A stretch of 48,167 bases of DNA from Candidatus Woesearchaeota archaeon (lineage in GTDB: Archaea > Nanobdellota > Nanobdellia > SCGC-AAA011-G17 > GW2011-AR18): NCBI GenBank assembly GCA_016179945.1, contig JACPCE010000002.1, positions 1 to 48,167 of the forward strand, in the 5' to 3' direction. Below are positions 17 to 6,590 of the stretch, piece after piece. Position 1 is the first letter of the stretch. Each line of letters begins with the position of its first letter. The notes beneath the pieces were generated by a model. The model searched no databases. It worked only from the letters and a program-made list of their open reading frames with translations, and had not been told where the DNA came from. The position numbers were made by a program, and so were the translations under genes.

Positions 17-3000
17 TTGTCAAACTGCTTTTCATGCCTCGAATCTGCAAATAAGGCTATAAGAATTCTTTTGTCCTGCTTTGCGCTGCGCAGCTCAAAA
101 TTTTTTGATATTGATTTTAAAACTACAAAACAATATGGGCATCCGATTTCACTCTGGAATGGAAATCAAATTCTCCATACAAAAAACGAAAGAGCTATTC
201 TTGCTGGAGAAGCTGCTTGTATAGTAGATCCACTTACTGCAGAAGGAATAAAACCCATAGAGAATATTAGAGAAGGGGAATTAGTATTAACTGCATCTGG
301 TAAATTCAGAAAAGTAGTAAAAACAATGGAAAGATTTTCAGAATCATATAGAGTAATAAATATTTGGAAGATGCCAAAAGAAACTTTAACTGTAACAGAT
401 GATCATCCAATTTTATGTCTAAATAAAGAAACTAAAAAATCTCAATGGAAGTTTGCTTCAGAAATTACATCAGAAGATCATGTTGCATTATCTTACCCTA
501 AACAAACAAATGATAAAGATAAATTAAATGTAATTGATTACTTAGAAAAAAACAAATACATTATAAAAGGGGGTTATATAATTAAACCAAATAAAGATAA
601 AAATTATCCAAAATATAGTATACAAACAAAACCAATAAAAGCAGAAATAGACATTGATTATGACTTATTAAAAATTTTTGGTTATTATTTAAGTGAAGGC
701 GATATAGATAAAGACAATGCTGTTAGATTTACGTTTAATTCTTCAGAAATAGAATATATGCAAGACTTAATATTATTAATGGAGAGAAAATTTGGAGTTA
801 AAGCAAAAATAGAAAAATCAAATTTTGGAAATTGGTCAAATTTAAGATTTTTTTCAAGAATATTAGTAAAATTATTTAAATTTATATTGGGTGAAGGGTT
901 TAATAAGAAAATAATTCCTTATTGGTTATTAGAACTCCCAATAGAAAAACAAAAAGGTCTCCTAGTAGGAATAATAAGAGGAGATGGATTTCCAACTAAA
1001 AATAGGCATACTACAAATATAAGAGCAGTTTTATCTAACAAAAACATGGTTTATGGAATTTGGACTATATTAGCTAGACTAGGTTATTTAGCAACTTTTA
1101 GAAAGGAAAGCCCAAAAAAATTAGCGACTACTGATTCTTATATAAGTTCATTAGACAGTTGTAATTCTGAAAAAATTTTTGATGAAGTTTTTATTGGAAG
1201 AGAATTTTATGGAATAACACAAGCTTCAATGAGAAGAGTAAAAGAATTATTTGTAGAAGGTGTTTTTTATTTACCTGTTAGGAATATTAAAGTTATACAA
1301 GAGTCTATTAAAGTTTATAATTTTGAGGTAGAAGGAGAACATACTTATGTAGCAAATAATGTTGCAGTACATAATTGTTTTGTCCTTCCGGTAGGAGATT
1401 CTATAGAAGAGATTTATTACGCATTAACAGCAATGGCAATGATACATCAAACAGGGGGAGGCACAGGATTTTCTTTCAGCAGAATAAGACCAGAAGGAGA
1501 CCCAGTTCAGTCTACAAAAGGGGTTGCTTCAGGACCAATGTCTTTTATGAGAATATTTGATACATCAACTGAAGTCGTGAAACAAGGCGGATCAAGACGT
1601 GGGGCTAATATGGGTATTATGTATTACAAACACCCAGACATAAAAAAATTTATAACAGCTAAATCTAAAGATCGTGGATTCTTGCAAAATTTTAATATAT
1701 CGGTTGCTTTAGATGAAGATTTTATGAAAGCTGTTGAAAATAATTCTGAAGTAGAATTATTAAACCCAAAAACTAAGAAACTAGTAACTATAGAAAAAGC
1801 AAAAGAACTATTTGATCTGATGGCTCAGTGTGCGTGGGAAACAGGAGATCCAGGTTTTGTCGTTATAGATAGAATAAACAATACAAATTCAAATCCAACA
1901 CCAAAAATAGGACAAATAGAAAGTACAAATCCTTGCGGTGAACAGCCATTATTGCCGTGGGAACCATGCACTTTGGGAAGTATTAATCTCTCAAATCATG
2001 TTAAAAAATTAGAAGGTAAATATGTTGTTGATTACACAAAATTAGAATACACAACAAAATTAGCAACACACTTCTTGGACAATGTAATTGACATGGGAAA
2101 TTATCCATTATCTGAAATAGAATATATATCTAAAGGAAACAGAAGAATTGGTCTAGGTGTTATGGGGTGGGCAGAAATGCTTGCAAAACTACAAATACCT
2201 TATGATTCAGAAGAAGCAATAACATTAGCAGAAGAAATTATGGGTTTTATAAACCTAAAGTCTTTAGAAGCCTCAGAAGAACTAGCTGAAACAAGAGGTG
2301 TTTTCTATAACTTTAAAGATAGTATATATGATGAAAAAAGTTCTTATTTCAGAGGCCAGTTGTCTCGCCCAAGAAACTGTGCAAGAACAACAATAGCACC
2401 AACAGGAACAATAGCGATTACAGCAGGATTGCAGGGCAGCGGCATTGAACCATTCTTTGCAATTGTATACAGACGTTATCAAGCAGAAGCAGTTGATGCT
2501 CTAAAAAAAGGAGAAGAACCAGACCCACGTTATGTTTATTATGAAGTTGTGCCTTTGTTCTTAGAAGTAGCAGAAAAACACAATTGGTTTGGACTTGACA
2601 AAAATACTTTGCTTAAGAAAATAGCAGACAATCATTCTTCTGTCCGTGGCATAAAAGAAATACCAACAAATATACAAAAAATATTTGTATCTTCCCATGA
2701 TATAAATTGGAAGACACATATAGACCATCAAGCAGCATTTCAAAAACACGTTGATAATGCAGTATCAAAGACAATAAACATGTCCAATAGTGTTACTGTT
2801 GAAGACATAAAAGAAGCTTATTTATATGCATATAAAGCAGGCTGCAAAGGAGTTACTGTTTATAGAGATGGTTGTAAAGAAGTTCAAGTTCTTAATTTAT
2901 CTTCTACAGAAGCATCTAAGAAGCAAAAAGAAGAAAAAAAAGAAATTGATTTTAGCAAAGGTATTTCCTCTGATTATTATGAGATAGAAACAGGTTATGG

Positions 3001-3421
3001 TCCTTTACATGTAAATGTAATATATGATAAAGAAGGTCCGCAAAGAATTTTTACTTCAATTCCACCAATAGGAACTGAATTAAGCAGTTTAACATCAGCA
3101 CTTGGGGTATTCATGTCAAAAGCATTCCAGGCAGGTTATGACCCTCACAAAGCAATAAAACATCTTAATTCAGCAAAAGGAGATAGACCATACGGTTTTG
3201 GTCCAAATAGAATTGATTCAATACCTCATGGTGTTGCTATTGCATTAAAAAGACATTTGGAAAAAACAGGCAGAATTGGTGATAAAGAACAAAGAAGATT
3301 AACAGAGCATGTTGAAGTTAAGCAGCAGCATTGCACAAAATGTTATTCTCCCAATGTTGAATACATAAACGGATGTCCATCGCCAACTTGTTTAGATTGC
3401 GGACATTCTGAATGTAGTTAA
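17..3421 (+). CDS. nrdJ: Class II (adenosylcobalamin-dependent) ribonucleotide reductase with intein, N-terminal part missing
   Basis: Reduces ribonucleotides to deoxyribonucleotides. The extein resumes at CFVLPVGDS and contains the reductase signatures STNPCGEQPLLPWEPC and ARTTIAPTGTI, ending in a Cys-rich tail (CTKC...CPSPTCLDCGHSEC) typical of the class II C-terminus. An intein interrupts the protein just before CFVLPV. The reductase sequence normally found before that point (ATP cone or N-terminal domain, then a segment ending LSAC) is absent. The first ~67 residues of this frame (nt 17-217) look unlike any reductase and more like antisense of another gene, so the ATG at 17 is doubtful. 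Either the gene is truncated by a junction near nt 170-217 or it is misassembled there. Identity of the C-terminal two thirds is firm. Confidence 0.9.
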   Translation: MSNCFSCLESANKAIRILLSCFALRSSKFFDIDFKTTKQYGHPISLWNGNQILHTKNERAILAGEAACIVDPLTAEGIKPIENIREGELVLTASGKFRKVVKTMERFSESYRVINIWKMPKETLTVTDDHPILCLNKETKKSQWKFASEITSEDHVALSYPKQTNDKDKLNVIDYLEKNKYIIKGGYIIKPNKDKNYPKYSIQTKPIKAEIDIDYDLLKIFGYYLSEGDIDKDNAVRFTFNSSEIEYMQDLILLMERKFGVKAKIEKSNFGNWSNLRFFSRILVKLFKFILGEGFNKKIIPYWLLELPIEKQKGLLVGIIRGDGFPTKNRHTTNIRAVLSNKNMVYGIWTILARLGYLATFRKESPKKLATTDSYISSLDSCNSEKIFDEVFIGREFYGITQASMRRVKELFVEGVFYLPVRNIKVIQESIKVYNFEVEGEHTYVANNVAVHNCFVLPVGDSIEEIYYALTAMAMIHQTGGGTGFSFSRIRPEGDPVQSTKGVASGPMSFMRIFDTSTEVVKQGGSRRGANMGIMYYKHPDIKKFITAKSKDRGFLQNFNISVALDEDFMKAVENNSEVELLNPKTKKLVTIEKAKELFDLMAQCAWETGDPGFVVIDRINNTNSNPTPKIGQIESTNPCGEQPLLPWEPCTLGSINLSNHVKKLEGKYVVDYTKLEYTTKLATHFLDNVIDMGNYPLSEIEYISKGNRRIGLGVMGWAEMLAKLQIPYDSEEAITLAEEIMGFINLKSLEASEELAETRGVFYNFKDSIYDEKSSYFRGQLSRPRNCARTTIAPTGTIAITAGLQGSGIEPFFAIVYRRYQAEAVDALKKGEEPDPRYVYYEVVPLFLEVAEKHNWFGLDKNTLLKKIADNHSSVRGIKEIPTNIQKIFVSSHDINWKTHIDHQAAFQKHVDNAVSKTINMSNSVTVEDIKEAYLYAYKAGCKGVTVYRDGCKEVQVLNLSSTEASKKQKEEKKEIDFSKGISSDYYEIETGYGPLHVNVIYDKEGPQRIFTSIPPIGTELSSLTSALGVFMSKAFQAGYDPHKAIKHLNSAKGDRPYGFGPNRIDSIPHGVAIALKRHLEKTGRIGDKEQRRLTEHVEVKQQHCTKCYSPNVEYINGCPSPTCLDCGHSECS
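218..1375 (+). other. Intein with LAGLIDADG homing endonuclease in nrdJ
   Basis: A 386-residue protein-splicing element. It starts at a Cys (CIVDPLTAEGIKPIENI, intein block A), has a block B-like stretch (TVTDDHPILCL), and ends in block F/G-like sequence (EVEGEHTYVANN, VAVHN) immediately before the +1 Cys of the extein (CFVLPV). Two dodecapeptide-like helices, LLKIFGYYLSEGDI and KGLLVGIIRGDG, place a DOD (LAGLIDADG) endonuclease in the middle. The nucleophile Cys, the penultimate His, the terminal Asn and the +1 Cys are all present, so splicing competence is plausible. The C-terminal boundary is firm. The N-terminal boundary is less so, because the flanking extein does not resemble a reductase. 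Confidence 0.88.
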
Positions 3422-3687: not shown

Positions 3688-4752
3688 TTATTTCTTAATT
3701 AAATCCAATTCTTTTCTAATATTTTTTCTTAGTTTATGAGTATTGGCCCACATTGCATAGCCACTCCATCCCTCGAAGCTTGCATTTAATTCTTCATAAC
3801 TTAAAATTTCTTCTTTATAAAGAAATATTTTATCTTCAATGTTTTTCTTGAATTTTATAAGATTACATTTTCTTAATAATTTATAATGATAAAATATCCT
3901 ATAGCCTAAGAAATTTACCCCCTTTCTTAATGGAACAATGTTTGATTTATTGGGATGTAACTCTAGCTTTAATTCATTAATAAGAAATAGGTTTATCTCT
4001 TTTTTATAGTATTCTAAAAATTTTTTATTTTTATGAAATATTACAAAGTCATCAACATATCTTATGTAATATTTTATTCTTAATTTATGTTTAATAAAAT
4101 AATCAAGTTCGTTTAGATAGACATTTGCAAAAAATTGTGAAGTCAAGTTTCCAAGGGGAATTCCGACACCCTTTATTTTTATTTCATAATTATCTAGTGT
4201 TTGTTTTATTAAAAATAAAATTTTTTCATCTTTAATTTTTCTATTTAATATTTTTAATAATATTTCATGGTTTATAGTTTCAAAGTAATGCTTAATATCT
4301 GCTTTAAGTACGTAACCAATAACATGATTATTATCAAAAGAATTCCTTATAGTTCTGCCATTGTTGGAAATCTTTCTTTTAAATTTATCAAACCTTATGA
4401 CACCATTAAGAGTTCCCTTATTTACTCTGCTTGCATATGAATCATAGATAAATACTTTTTCAAATATTGGTTCTATTATATTTATCAGCGCATGATAGAC
4501 TACCCTATCTCTAAAGGCAGAAGCATGAATTACTCTTGTTTTTGGGTCCCTTACAATAAATCTTTTTAGCTCTCTTGGTTTGTAAGTTAACAATTCAAGT
4601 TCTTTTTGTAAATTCCTTAATTCCTCTTCAAGATTTTCTTTAAATTTAATAACATAATCTTTATTTGTCTTGTTCTTCTTTGCTTTTTCAAAAGCCAGTT
4701 TAAGATTTTCATAAGAACATATAAATTTGTATAAATTATTGTATGTCTTCAT
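3688..4752 (-). CDS. DGR-type reverse transcriptase
   Basis: 354-residue RNA-directed DNA polymerase. Readable motifs in order: RVVYHALINIIEP (~83-95), motif A LKADIKHYFETINH (~148-161), the diagnostic DGR motif GVGIPLGNLTSQFFANVYLNELD (~197-219) where group II intron enzymes have QGxxxSP, catalytic RYVDDFVIF (~230-238), and KGVNFLGYRIF. The C-terminal part is short, with no maturase X or HNH domain, matching the 300-400 residue DGR class rather than intron-encoded enzymes. The YVDD active site is intact. A template repeat lies 31 nt upstream of the ATG on the same strand, and the diversified target gene is divergent. No Avd accessory gene was recognised nearby. Confidence 0.93.
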   Translation of the reverse strand: MKTYNNLYKFICSYENLKLAFEKAKKNKTNKDYVIKFKENLEEELRNLQKELELLTYKPRELKRFIVRDPKTRVIHASAFRDRVVYHALINIIEPIFEKVFIYDSYASRVNKGTLNGVIRFDKFKRKISNNGRTIRNSFDNNHVIGYVLKADIKHYFETINHEILLKILNRKIKDEKILFLIKQTLDNYEIKIKGVGIPLGNLTSQFFANVYLNELDYFIKHKLRIKYYIRYVDDFVIFHKNKKFLEYYKKEINLFLINELKLELHPNKSNIVPLRKGVNFLGYRIFYHYKLLRKCNLIKFKKNIEDKIFLYKEEILSYEELNASFEGWSGYAMWANTHKLRKNIRKELDLIKK

Positions 4753-4759
4753 AATTTTA

Positions 4760-5094
4760 TTGCCCTAGATGTATTGGGATATTCCCAAGCCTGGAGATCT
4801 CGCCTGTTAAGATTTCGAGTTCCTCGGATTCCTATTGCAGTTCAAGTTGACCCTATCGGAATTCGCTCTGAACCTCACGACAGTTCTAGCAGGTGCATCA
4901 AGTTTCACTATGATTTTAATGTTCTTTCAAGACTTTCCCAAGGCCTATCATAATTACTAGTTATTATCATTGTACTTCATCGCATTTAAACTTAAACCGT
5001 CCATGCTTATGCATCTGCGTGTAACCCAACTTTGCAGTTTTTCATTGGTTTACTATCGGGAAGACAGTCCCTCATACAGCAAAATCTAGGGCAA
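4760..5094 (-). ncRNA. Predicted DGR template RNA region closed by an 11-bp inverted repeat
   Basis: No protein gene fits the ~430 nt between the reverse transcriptase start and the target gene start. On the minus strand it holds the template repeat. Perfect 11-nt inverted repeats bracket it: TTGCCCTAGAT at 5094-5084 and ATCTAGGGCAA at 4770-4760 (minus-strand reading), enclosing 313 nt. Their pairing would form a terminal stem around the template, 7 nt before the reverse transcriptase ATG. DGR template RNAs are known to need flanking structured RNA. That this segment is the RNA is inference from position and pairing. Confidence 0.55.
4784..4883 (-). repeat. DGR template repeat (TR)
   Basis: Read on the minus strand from 4883. 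A 68-nt core (4883-4816, starting CTGTCGTGAGG) aligns without gaps to the variable repeat at 6251-6318. There are 14 differences, all at template adenines (A to G 8, A to T 5, A to C 1). All 49 non-adenine positions are identical and 14 of 19 adenines changed. Three further adenines (4815-4813) align to GGC. After this the TR carries 17 extra nt, then a shared 13-mer CTCCAGGCTTGGG at 4796-4784 (VR 6321-6333), the likely initiation-of-homing region. Template codons at variable sites are mostly AAC/AAT, the usual DGR design. Confidence 0.95.
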
Positions 5095-5283
5095 GCAAAA
5101 CAATAAATATCACCTTAATAAATTTTCTTTTTAGAAAATAAGAAAAGAAAGCTTTTTTAAAGATAAATTTCTGTGTTAAATTATATGAAACTAGAGGAAA
5201 TAAATCAGGTTGCAGAAAAAATTTTAGGCCGTGCATTAAAATACAGCTTGAAAATAGCTGTAACAATCACACAGATTGATGAT

Positions 5284-5286
5284 TAA
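5284..5286 (+). other. In-frame TAA inside the DGR target frame
   Basis: Codons on both sides read as one protein (ITQIDD, stop, GEHTPVTIKVLDEEY). It is a single-codon interruption, with no frameshift. A purine-rich TAAGGAGAA overlaps the stop, but no ATG, GTG or TTG follows at SD distance in this frame. Confidence 0.8.
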
Positions 5287-6250
5287 GGAGAACATACACC
5301 AGTAACGATAAAAGTTCTAGATGAAGAATATAGTAATATAATTGAGGGTATAAAAGAACTTTTGATAAGTAACATTGATGCAGTAGTTACCTTCATGCTG
5401 CTTGATGAGTCAGGCAGGCAAGTTGCAAGCGAAAAACAGGAGAAAATTCTTGAAAAAGAACTATTACTTTCACTCGCTAAAACTGATGTGAATTCTACAT
5501 ACAAAGGATTTTTCAGGAAAAGAATGGAATTCTGGCATGAAACATTATTTCATCAAAAAAATTTTGCTTTCCTTACAAGAAATTACAGGCTTACTTACCA
5601 GATTATTGTAAGGCCTATAGGAAAAGTTACTGGAGCGAAATCTTTTAGTTTATCTGATTATTGGAGTAAATTTAAGTCTTTAATCCCTAAAAAGGAACAA
5701 AAATTATTAAGTGAAAAATCTGAAATAGAAAAACCTAAAGAATGGATAAAACTGCCAGGAAATACTTATGAAGATTATTCATATCTAGACTTATTAGTTT
5801 CAATATCAAGATATAATTTCAATAAAAACTGGAATGAATGCCAAAAATTACTGCATAAAAATAAAGAATTTATGTTAACAATAAGACAGTTTGTTGATTT
5901 TTTAAATTTGTTAAGATCTGGAGAAGTTGAATATAGTAATGGAGAAAAAGTTCCAAAAAAAGAAGTTGAAAGAATATTAAATGAAATAATAGAAGTAAGA
6001 AGCCCATGGAGATCTGAATGGCTTGATGCGAAGTTTATTAATAAAGAAGAACAAATTCATATAGTTTATAATAAATTAAATGCCGAAGGTGAAACAACAG
6101 AGGTTATAGAACCATTGAAGGATTGTCTAATAGAAGATAAAACTCCTGGGATAGGTTTTAATTCATGGTTAAATAATAAGGCGAAGCATGGACTTCCTTT
6201 AAATAATATTAAAGACGGTAGTTTATGGTACTGGTATCCAAGAGCGAATT

Positions 6251-6333
6251 CTGTCGTGTGGTTCAGGGCGGGTTCCGGTAGGGTCGTCTTGCTCTGCTTT
6301 GGGAATCCGGGGGACTCGGGCTCCAGGCTTGGG
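6251..6333 (+). repeat. DGR variable repeat (VR)
   Basis: The segment of the target gene matching the template repeat at 4784-4883 (opposite strand). Adenine-only substitutions change the encoded residues: R to W, N to G, D to G, N to V, N to L, N to F, R to G twice, N to D and K to G. Invariant positions keep the scaffold (SVV, FRA, RV, NP, S). GC content here is far above its surroundings, reflecting A to G replacement. The 3' limit is the shared 13-mer at 6321-6333, followed by LGVRR, 12 codons before the stop. Confidence 0.95.
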
Positions 6334-6590
6334 GTACGTCGCGCAAAAATTTTTAGGGTTGATTTATAATAAAATAACAAATAAGGATTAATGAATAAAT
6401 ATATAAAATAATTTTATTCTTTATTATGAATATTTATTAGATGCAATATTTTGTTCTTACATAGTTTATTATTCCTGGCTTAAACCAGAAAAATGTAAAG
6501 TTCTTGGAAATATAAAAAAATGCTAAATTTTTACTCCAGTTTTCGATCACATGCAATAAATTAATAAATAGAAGAATTTGCAAAATTAAA

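Follow-up and report, generated by a model that had tools for sequence, protein, structure and literature searches.

A group of DPANN DGRs with an RT-16 RNA leader and a putative bulge-helix-bulge intron in the template repeat

Our analysis points to a group of DGRs in DPANN archaea whose template repeat (TR) appears, on balance, to contain a natural intron of the tRNA type, with a bulge-helix-bulge (BHB) geometry. This intron would be spliced by EndA and RtcB before mutagenic copying, with the VRs preserving a record of the spliced cDNA and the RT-16 RNA acting as leader. The DGR itself is of a known type; the identity of the leader and the putative template intron are what is new. The element considered here lies in a stretch of 48,167 nucleotides from Candidatus Woesearchaeota archaeon (assembly GCA_016179945.1, contig JACPCE010000002.1, forward strand), hereafter the window, which is contig 17 in a DPANN assembly of 74% completeness whose closest named relatives are Woesearchaeota/Nanoarchaeota MAGs. 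Its features are:

3688-4752, minus strand: DGR reverse transcriptase (RT), 354 aa, an intact ORF with YVDD and the block 4 sequence GIPLGNLTSQ (RVT_1)
4784-4796, minus strand: TR exon 2 / IMH*, CTCCAGGCTTGGG, then AATA; identical to VR 6321-6333
4797-4813, minus strand: insert found only in the TR and absent from the VR, proposed BHB intron, 17 nt, ATCTTAACAGGCGAGAT
4814-4883, minus strand: TR exon 1 (template repeat core), 70 nt with 21 A, of which 16 are changed in the VR
4881-5089, minus strand: RT-16 RNA (Rfam RF03019), putative structured 5' leader, 65.1 bits against a gathering threshold of 50, full model length
5185-6369, plus strand: target gene frame, with ATG at 5185, an in-frame TAA at 5284-5286 and an open part at 5287-6369
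6251-6333, plus strand: VR, at the 3' end of the target, differing only at adenines from a TR with exon 1 fused to exon 2
6331-6336, plus strand: IMH motif GGGGTA, with the TR counterpart GGAATA

As the neighbors of the element are housekeeping genes (coding for deoxyhypusine synthase, ribosomal and FtsZ-like proteins) and only two relatives of its RT were found in 2.9 million viral contigs, an origin from a provirus is unlikely and the DGR is most likely chromosomal. Elsewhere in the window (17-3421, plus strand) a long ORF resembles, by eye only, an intein-interrupted ribonucleotide reductase (CIVDPLTAEG...VAVHNC).

An adenine-specific TR/VR pair beside a DGR-type RT

When the first 16 kb of the window were scanned without bias for adenine-tolerant repeats, this TR/VR pair was the only one returned. 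A preliminary description, made from the letters of the DNA alone, had recognized here a complete archaeal DGR with adenine-only differences between TR and VR, and the TR, an intact RT of the DGR type and the VR are indeed all present. Adenine-tolerant realignment recovered its gap-free core of 68 nt, with 14 of 19 TR adenines and none of the 49 other bases changed. The TR (4784-4883, minus strand) is not colinear with the VR (6251-6333, plus strand) over its whole length: it consists of exon 1 (4814-4883), the 17-nt TR-only insert (4797-4813) and exon 2/IMH* (4784-4796). Without the insert the TR matches the VR across 83 nt (6251-6333), with changes at 16 of 22 adenines and at none of the 61 other positions. 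The hypergeometric probability that all 16 changes in this match would fall on A is 1.4e-12, and the bases found at the changed VR sites are G (10), T (5) and C (1). The TR/VR relationship is thus real and far beyond chance. For the genome-wide search we used the TR as a pattern in which A could be any base, as BLAST was too insensitive and missed even the known VR; with up to 3 mismatches over the 782-kb assembly, the pattern matched only the TR and this VR, and its reversed control had 0 matches. The difference between GGAAT in the TR and GGGGT in the VR is common to nearly all the DPANN DGRs seen, and a report on nanoarchaeal DGRs (PMC4372165) gives the same difference between IMH and IMH*. 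Clear GC hairpins were found downstream of the VR in many relatives, and none is clear in the window.

The RT carries the SQ block 4 of the DGR type and adjoins the TR; its assignment rests on the motif and the PDB match, without a tree that includes group II and retron outgroups. Its closest solved structure is 8ub7 (E 2.4e-45), which we take to be the Bordetella (BPP-1) DGR RT, bRT, with group II maturases following at E 2.4e-22. It also matches the RT of phrog_1423 (E 5.8e-114), and RTs 49-73% identical to it are found throughout DPANN. The proposal that this is a group II intron or retron RT standing beside a coincidental repeat can draw on the closest NCBIfam RT model, a group II RT/maturase, yet the score of 149 bits is half the cut-off of 300. 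Moreover, 8ub7 is the closest solved RT by 76 bits, and of the 86 loci scanned most have an adenine-tolerant TR/VR pair beside a homologous RT, which leaves this proposal with a negligible probability. Taken together, the NCBIfam and PDB comparisons do not place the RT closest to group II or retron families.

A sister species (G001) has a multi-target DGR in which one TR, related to that of the window, matches three VRs on three contigs (C26, L117; C24, L142; C11, L143). The changes in these VRs amount, in one pair each, to 15 of 20 A with 0 other bases, 14 of 21 A with 0 others, and 10 of 21 A with 1 other. Targets in trans are shown in this species.

RT-16 as the putative leader of the template RNA

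The preliminary description missed the structured leader, the putative TR intron and the apparently broken target frame. The leader is a member of an RNA family that, at the gathering threshold, was detected in 44 of the 49 DPANN DGR loci scanned for it. In 37 of 42 DPANN DGRs the 3' end of RF03019 is no more than about 10 nt from where the TR begins; in the 5 remaining loci the detected TR core probably starts late. Where the TR lies on the strand opposite the RT (L072 and L079), RT-16 accompanies the TR, and in two genomes (G022 and G038) a unit of RT-16 and TR is situated away from any detected RT. Since RT-16 ends at the TR start and goes with the TR across strands and without an RT, it would be part of the template RNA, and we infer from this arrangement that it is the 5' leader of that RNA. 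The two units with no adjoining RT (G022:C16:6531-6795 and G038:C16:26186-26433) combine RT-16 with an intron-bearing TR. In G022 the RT is about 6 kb from the unit and two VRs match its TR, which suggests an RT that acts on a template at a distance.

By analogy with phage BPP-1, RT-16 sits where avd sits in that phage. This raises the possibility, as an inference from the analogy, that RT-16 takes the role of the avd mRNA end in stopping reverse transcription or replaces Avd as a scaffold. The Avd model PF22296 was not found in the assembly, which is weak evidence as no control genome gave a signal.

A putative BHB intron in the TR

In the archaeal BHB motif a 4-bp helix lies between two bulges of 3 nt each (PMC6379350). 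In the window insert the corresponding helix would pair CTCG of exon 1 (4816-4819) with CGAG (4799-4802), with cuts at CTCGAA^A and CGAGAT^C. What is missing from the VR is the loop and the 3' arm, with the 5' arm retained, and this, as read from the repeats, is the signature of an archaeal BHB intron. Nineteen DPANN DGRs were found to have inserts of 17-39 nt with BHB geometry at the same TR site. The edges of the inserts were defined from the TR/VR alignment alone; since adenines act as wild cards, the position of the splice junction is in many cases free to shift by 1-5 nt. The junction under the BHB rule (a 4-bp helix, CTCG:CGAG or CTCG:CGGG, with each cut 2 nt to its 3' side) is one of 4 admissible junctions in the window, and is likewise admissible in G001 (three VRs), L034 (two), L035 VR 1, L036 (two), L040, L041 and L055. 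The second VR of L035 fits only a junction 1 nt from the BHB-rule cut. No junction passed the strict test in L037, a decayed pair whose core has 3 mismatches, although the spliced TR matches its VR with 3 non-A mismatches.

When 103 genomes of the order were searched with a BHB pattern, 17 matches were obtained, 16 of them in DGR TRs, and the total of 19 distinct introns was reached with three more (L041, L055 and G041) from TR/VR alignment or the scan of loci. A reversed control pattern was as frequent as the BHB motif genome-wide, and only the place of the motif in TRs is special; we therefore dropped the bare motif as a genome-wide detector and rely on position, not on counts. Excluded from the 19 were L048, L049 and L083, whose TR-only inserts at this site (30-34 nt) have a BHB helix of 3 bp at best. 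The 19 inserts are homologous rather than independent events, and the RT tree requires about 7 gains or losses. As the set was partly gathered with a motif that fixes CTCG and CGRG, the central helix cannot serve as a test; the tests proper are the inner helix, the outer helix and the VR edges, which were aligned independently.

For the inner helix the geometry was fixed by the motif, without alignment freedom. Over the 19 loci, 77 of 95 positions are paired, against 63.8 +- 3.1 in shuffles, and none of 20,000 shuffles was as high. The pairs are exchanged as C-G/T-A, T-A/C-G and A-T/T-A/C-G, position 2 being C-G in 11 loci, T-A in 7 and T-G in 1. The outer helix joins exon 1 to exon 2; it has 72 of 114 positions paired against 56.9 +- 4.7 (5 of 5,000 shuffles), and only in the expected register. 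The 5' bulge, AAA, has 3 nt; the best outer-helix register has a 3' bulge of 2 rather than 3 nt before the first A-T pair, and the 3' bulge is accordingly 2 or 3 nt depending on that pair. The window's own copy has only weak outer and inner helices, of 3 bp apiece, and its MFE fold favors a different pairing.

These geometrical data bear on an alternative in which the insert is a hairpin skipped by the RT through template jumping, and not a spliced intron. The insert can fold, RTs can jump hairpins, and in some loci a 2-nt TC is common to both edges, as such skipping might leave. However, the VR lacks the loop and 3' arm but keeps the 5' arm CTCG, as in BHB cutting and unlike a loss at the base of a hairpin; no similarity between the edges extends to every locus, as L041 and L055 illustrate; and neither the 3-nt bulge on the 5' side nor a covarying outer helix formed by the exons would be expected. 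We therefore consider skipping unlikely.

Spliced TRs match 19 VRs belonging to 13 DGRs. Past the splice point, changes affect 6 of the 13 adenines and only 2 of the 215 other bases (p 2.5e-7). These exon-2 adenine changes occur in VRs of G001, G028, G039 and G022; both G028 and G022 have one VR altered past the junction and a second VR, matched by the same TR, that is unaltered there. Adenine changes beyond the splice point imply that the cDNA crosses the junction and is copied from the template there. They also decide largely against the view that the cDNA comprises exon 1 only, exon 2/IMH being a fixed recognition element and the insert a structural element that is never copied. That view would accommodate the window, where the sole exon-2 adenine is unchanged, and homing needs likeness of IMH and IMH* anyway; but it accounts neither for the changed exon-2 adenines elsewhere nor for the differing VRs of one TR, and we regard it as quite improbable.

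Among the VRs matched to the TRs of insert-carrying DGRs, none bearing the insert was seen. Seven of the 19 inserts are not a multiple of 3 nt and thus could not be copied into a VR without breaking the target; the window insert, if copied, would bring in an in-frame TAA (AAC TCG AAA TCT TAA). One locus (L039) has the same TR place without an insert, AACTCGAATACTTCGCTCGGAATA. The genome encodes both EndA (PF01974, E 1.4e-29) and RtcB (PF01139, E 6.5e-151).

Proposed mechanism

From the order and strand of the features we infer a minus-strand transcript that would contain the RT-16 leader, the TR and then the RT message. EndA would cut, and RtcB would seal, the small BHB intron in the template RNA, a step inferred from geometry, covariation and VR sequences and in our estimation fairly probable. 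The DGR RT would then copy the spliced template with errors opposite adenines, and the cDNA would replace the VR of the neighboring target, which may be C-type-lectin-like. Splicing of the template before reverse transcription is a probable event, inferred from DNA sequence without RNA evidence. The pattern of changes itself shows that copying errs opposite adenines and that the VR is replaced, the enzymology being assumed from BPP-1 by analogy. A use for the intron can only be speculated upon: it may set the TR DNA apart from all VRs and thereby protect the template from being rewritten by homing. The whole of this account, i.e. a chromosomal DPANN DGR with an RT-16 leader, a spliced BHB intron in the template and adenine-error copying into the VR, is the best explanation we can offer and has a good probability of being right.

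The target gene

The in-frame TAA (5284-5286) interrupts a conserved N-terminal frame, the homologs in the sister species reading on through the site (IDDEGDHTP and IDENGEHTP). As judged from this consensus, the target would be broken or would start late, at TTG 5362, the first listed start in the open part, giving 335 aa. The VR lies within the last 40 codons. An AF2 model predicts the C-terminal domain of the target with confidence, and Foldseek on this model has C-type lectins among its weak top fold matches (E above 0.1). No useful match to the target was obtained in Pfam, NCBIfam, PHROGs or by PDB sequence.

The interrupted frame, together with the single VR left in the assembly, would suit the idea that the DGR is a relic in this strain in which mutagenesis has stopped. 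Nevertheless, the RT is intact and the VR has no non-adenine decay over 61 positions; a single base in a consensus drawn from a metagenome may reflect strain variation or a mistake, and other targets may be missing from an assembly that is 74% complete. A relic hence appears doubtful to us, and it concerns present activity, so that it can be compatible with the proposed working of the element. Present activity of the window copy is not shown, its target frame carrying the TAA.

The suggestion that the target scaffold might be novel was not borne out, as relatives of the target are present in 29 of 99 related genomes, with up to 17 copies in one genome. The divergent arrangement, likewise put forward as possibly new, is indeed unusual: among 53 DPANN DGRs with the TR just upstream of the RT, the VR is on the opposite strand in only 2, the DGR of the window and L039. 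The genome with 17 target relatives (G020; L145 and other contigs) yielded neither an RT relative nor an RT-16 RNA. A second gene of the target family in the genome of the window (L140:3386-3443, G000:C1) has a VR-like end that differs from the window TR at 13 adenines and 6 other bases; this end would be old or served by another template.

Poly-G tracts in DGR RT genes

Five RT homologs (minus strand) are split just before block 4, each with a run of 9-10 G at the frame change:

L112:3624-5368 (G000:C14), split DGR RT
L113:592, split DGR RT
L114:5350, split DGR RT
L115:5310, split DGR RT
L116:5434, split DGR RT

The first of these (G000:C14) is a second DGR of the genome of the window; the window RT itself has no poly-G tract. 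Other relatives have runs of G7-G12 at this place or near residue 313, in or out of frame, and coding-strand runs of at least 7 G are found in 12 of 80 DPANN DGR RTs chosen by RT similarity alone, most of them at the same two places. Runs of G or C in RT genes number 13, against 3.4 expected from flanking DNA (p 5e-5). To judge from these tracts, this looks like phase variation of the DGR RT. A programmed frameshift was set aside, as both frame offsets occur, which better fits variation in tract length; homopolymer assembly error is not excluded. Two further RTs (L101:3032 and L104:6017-6029) have frame breaks near residue 280-288 without poly-G. Among the titles and abstracts found on DGRs and phase variation, none describes a phase-variable DGR RT.

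Significance

The DGRs of small symbiotic archaea are known mainly from sequence, and their working without a recognizable Avd is unexplained. A conserved leader that ends exactly at the template is a concrete candidate for an RNA that organizes the RT, and the orphan Rfam family RT-16 would, if the proposal is true, be the leader of the template RNA. The template intron, if true, would be to our knowledge the first natural case in which a splicing step stands in the flow of DGR information. It would demonstrate a naturally occurring RNA intermediate, provide a new class of EndA substrate and make gene diversification dependent on the tRNA-splicing machinery. The TR DNA would be marked as different from every VR, the VRs would record spliced cDNA, and the intron would offer a simple means of telling cDNA-derived sequence from TR DNA. 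In the literature searched, no paper joins DGRs with RT-16, bulge-helix-bulge motifs or template introns; that the source paper of RF03019 (Weinberg 2017) links this RNA to DGR templates is not excluded. As far as could be found, a tRNA-type intron in a DGR template is undescribed.

Comparison with known systems

DGRs were already known from DPANN, as the preliminary description had stated, from the report on nanoarchaea (PMC4372165) and a review (PMC8867640). The nanoarchaeal (DUSEL4) and other DPANN DGRs of Paul et al. 2015 (PMC4372165) resemble the present one in RT type, adenine mutagenesis and IMH/IMH*, and in the occurrence of several DGRs per genome with targets in small uncultured archaea. 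In the passages of that report consulted here neither a TR insert nor an RF03019 leader is mentioned, and Avd-sized ORFs are marked between RT and target; in the window no such ORF is recognizable, the target is divergent and its frame is interrupted. RF03019 is named in Rfam only after the neighboring reverse transcriptase, and is here, with a full-length 65-bit match in the window, tied to the 5' edge of DGR TRs.

The DGR of Bordetella phage BPP-1 shares with the element the TR/VR pair, the error-prone RT, IMH/IMH* and a VR at the 3' end of the target, which has a lectin fold in BPP-1 and may have one here. In BPP-1, avd lies 5' of the TR and the end of its mRNA stops reverse transcription, and a structured spacer 3' of the TR recruits the RT complex (PMC12875486). 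The window has instead the structured RT-16 5' of the TR, a spacer of only ~30 nt to the RT, and the TR insert. With archaeal BHB introns of tRNA, rRNA and cbf5 mRNA (PMC6379350, PMC2738675) the insert has in common its short length (17-39 nt), a 4-bp helix with further helices on either side, and cut sites 2 nt into the bulges, and the genome encodes EndA and RtcB. It differs from them in residing in a DGR TR, in a 3' bulge that may be shorter than 3 nt, and in that its splicing is only inferred. An intron-marked TR of BPP-1 reportedly served Guo et al. in 2008 to prove the RNA intermediate, the intron in that case being an engineered, self-splicing group I intron. Both cases combine an intron in the TR with an intron-less VR; in the DPANN elements the putative intron is natural and apparently spliced by proteins.
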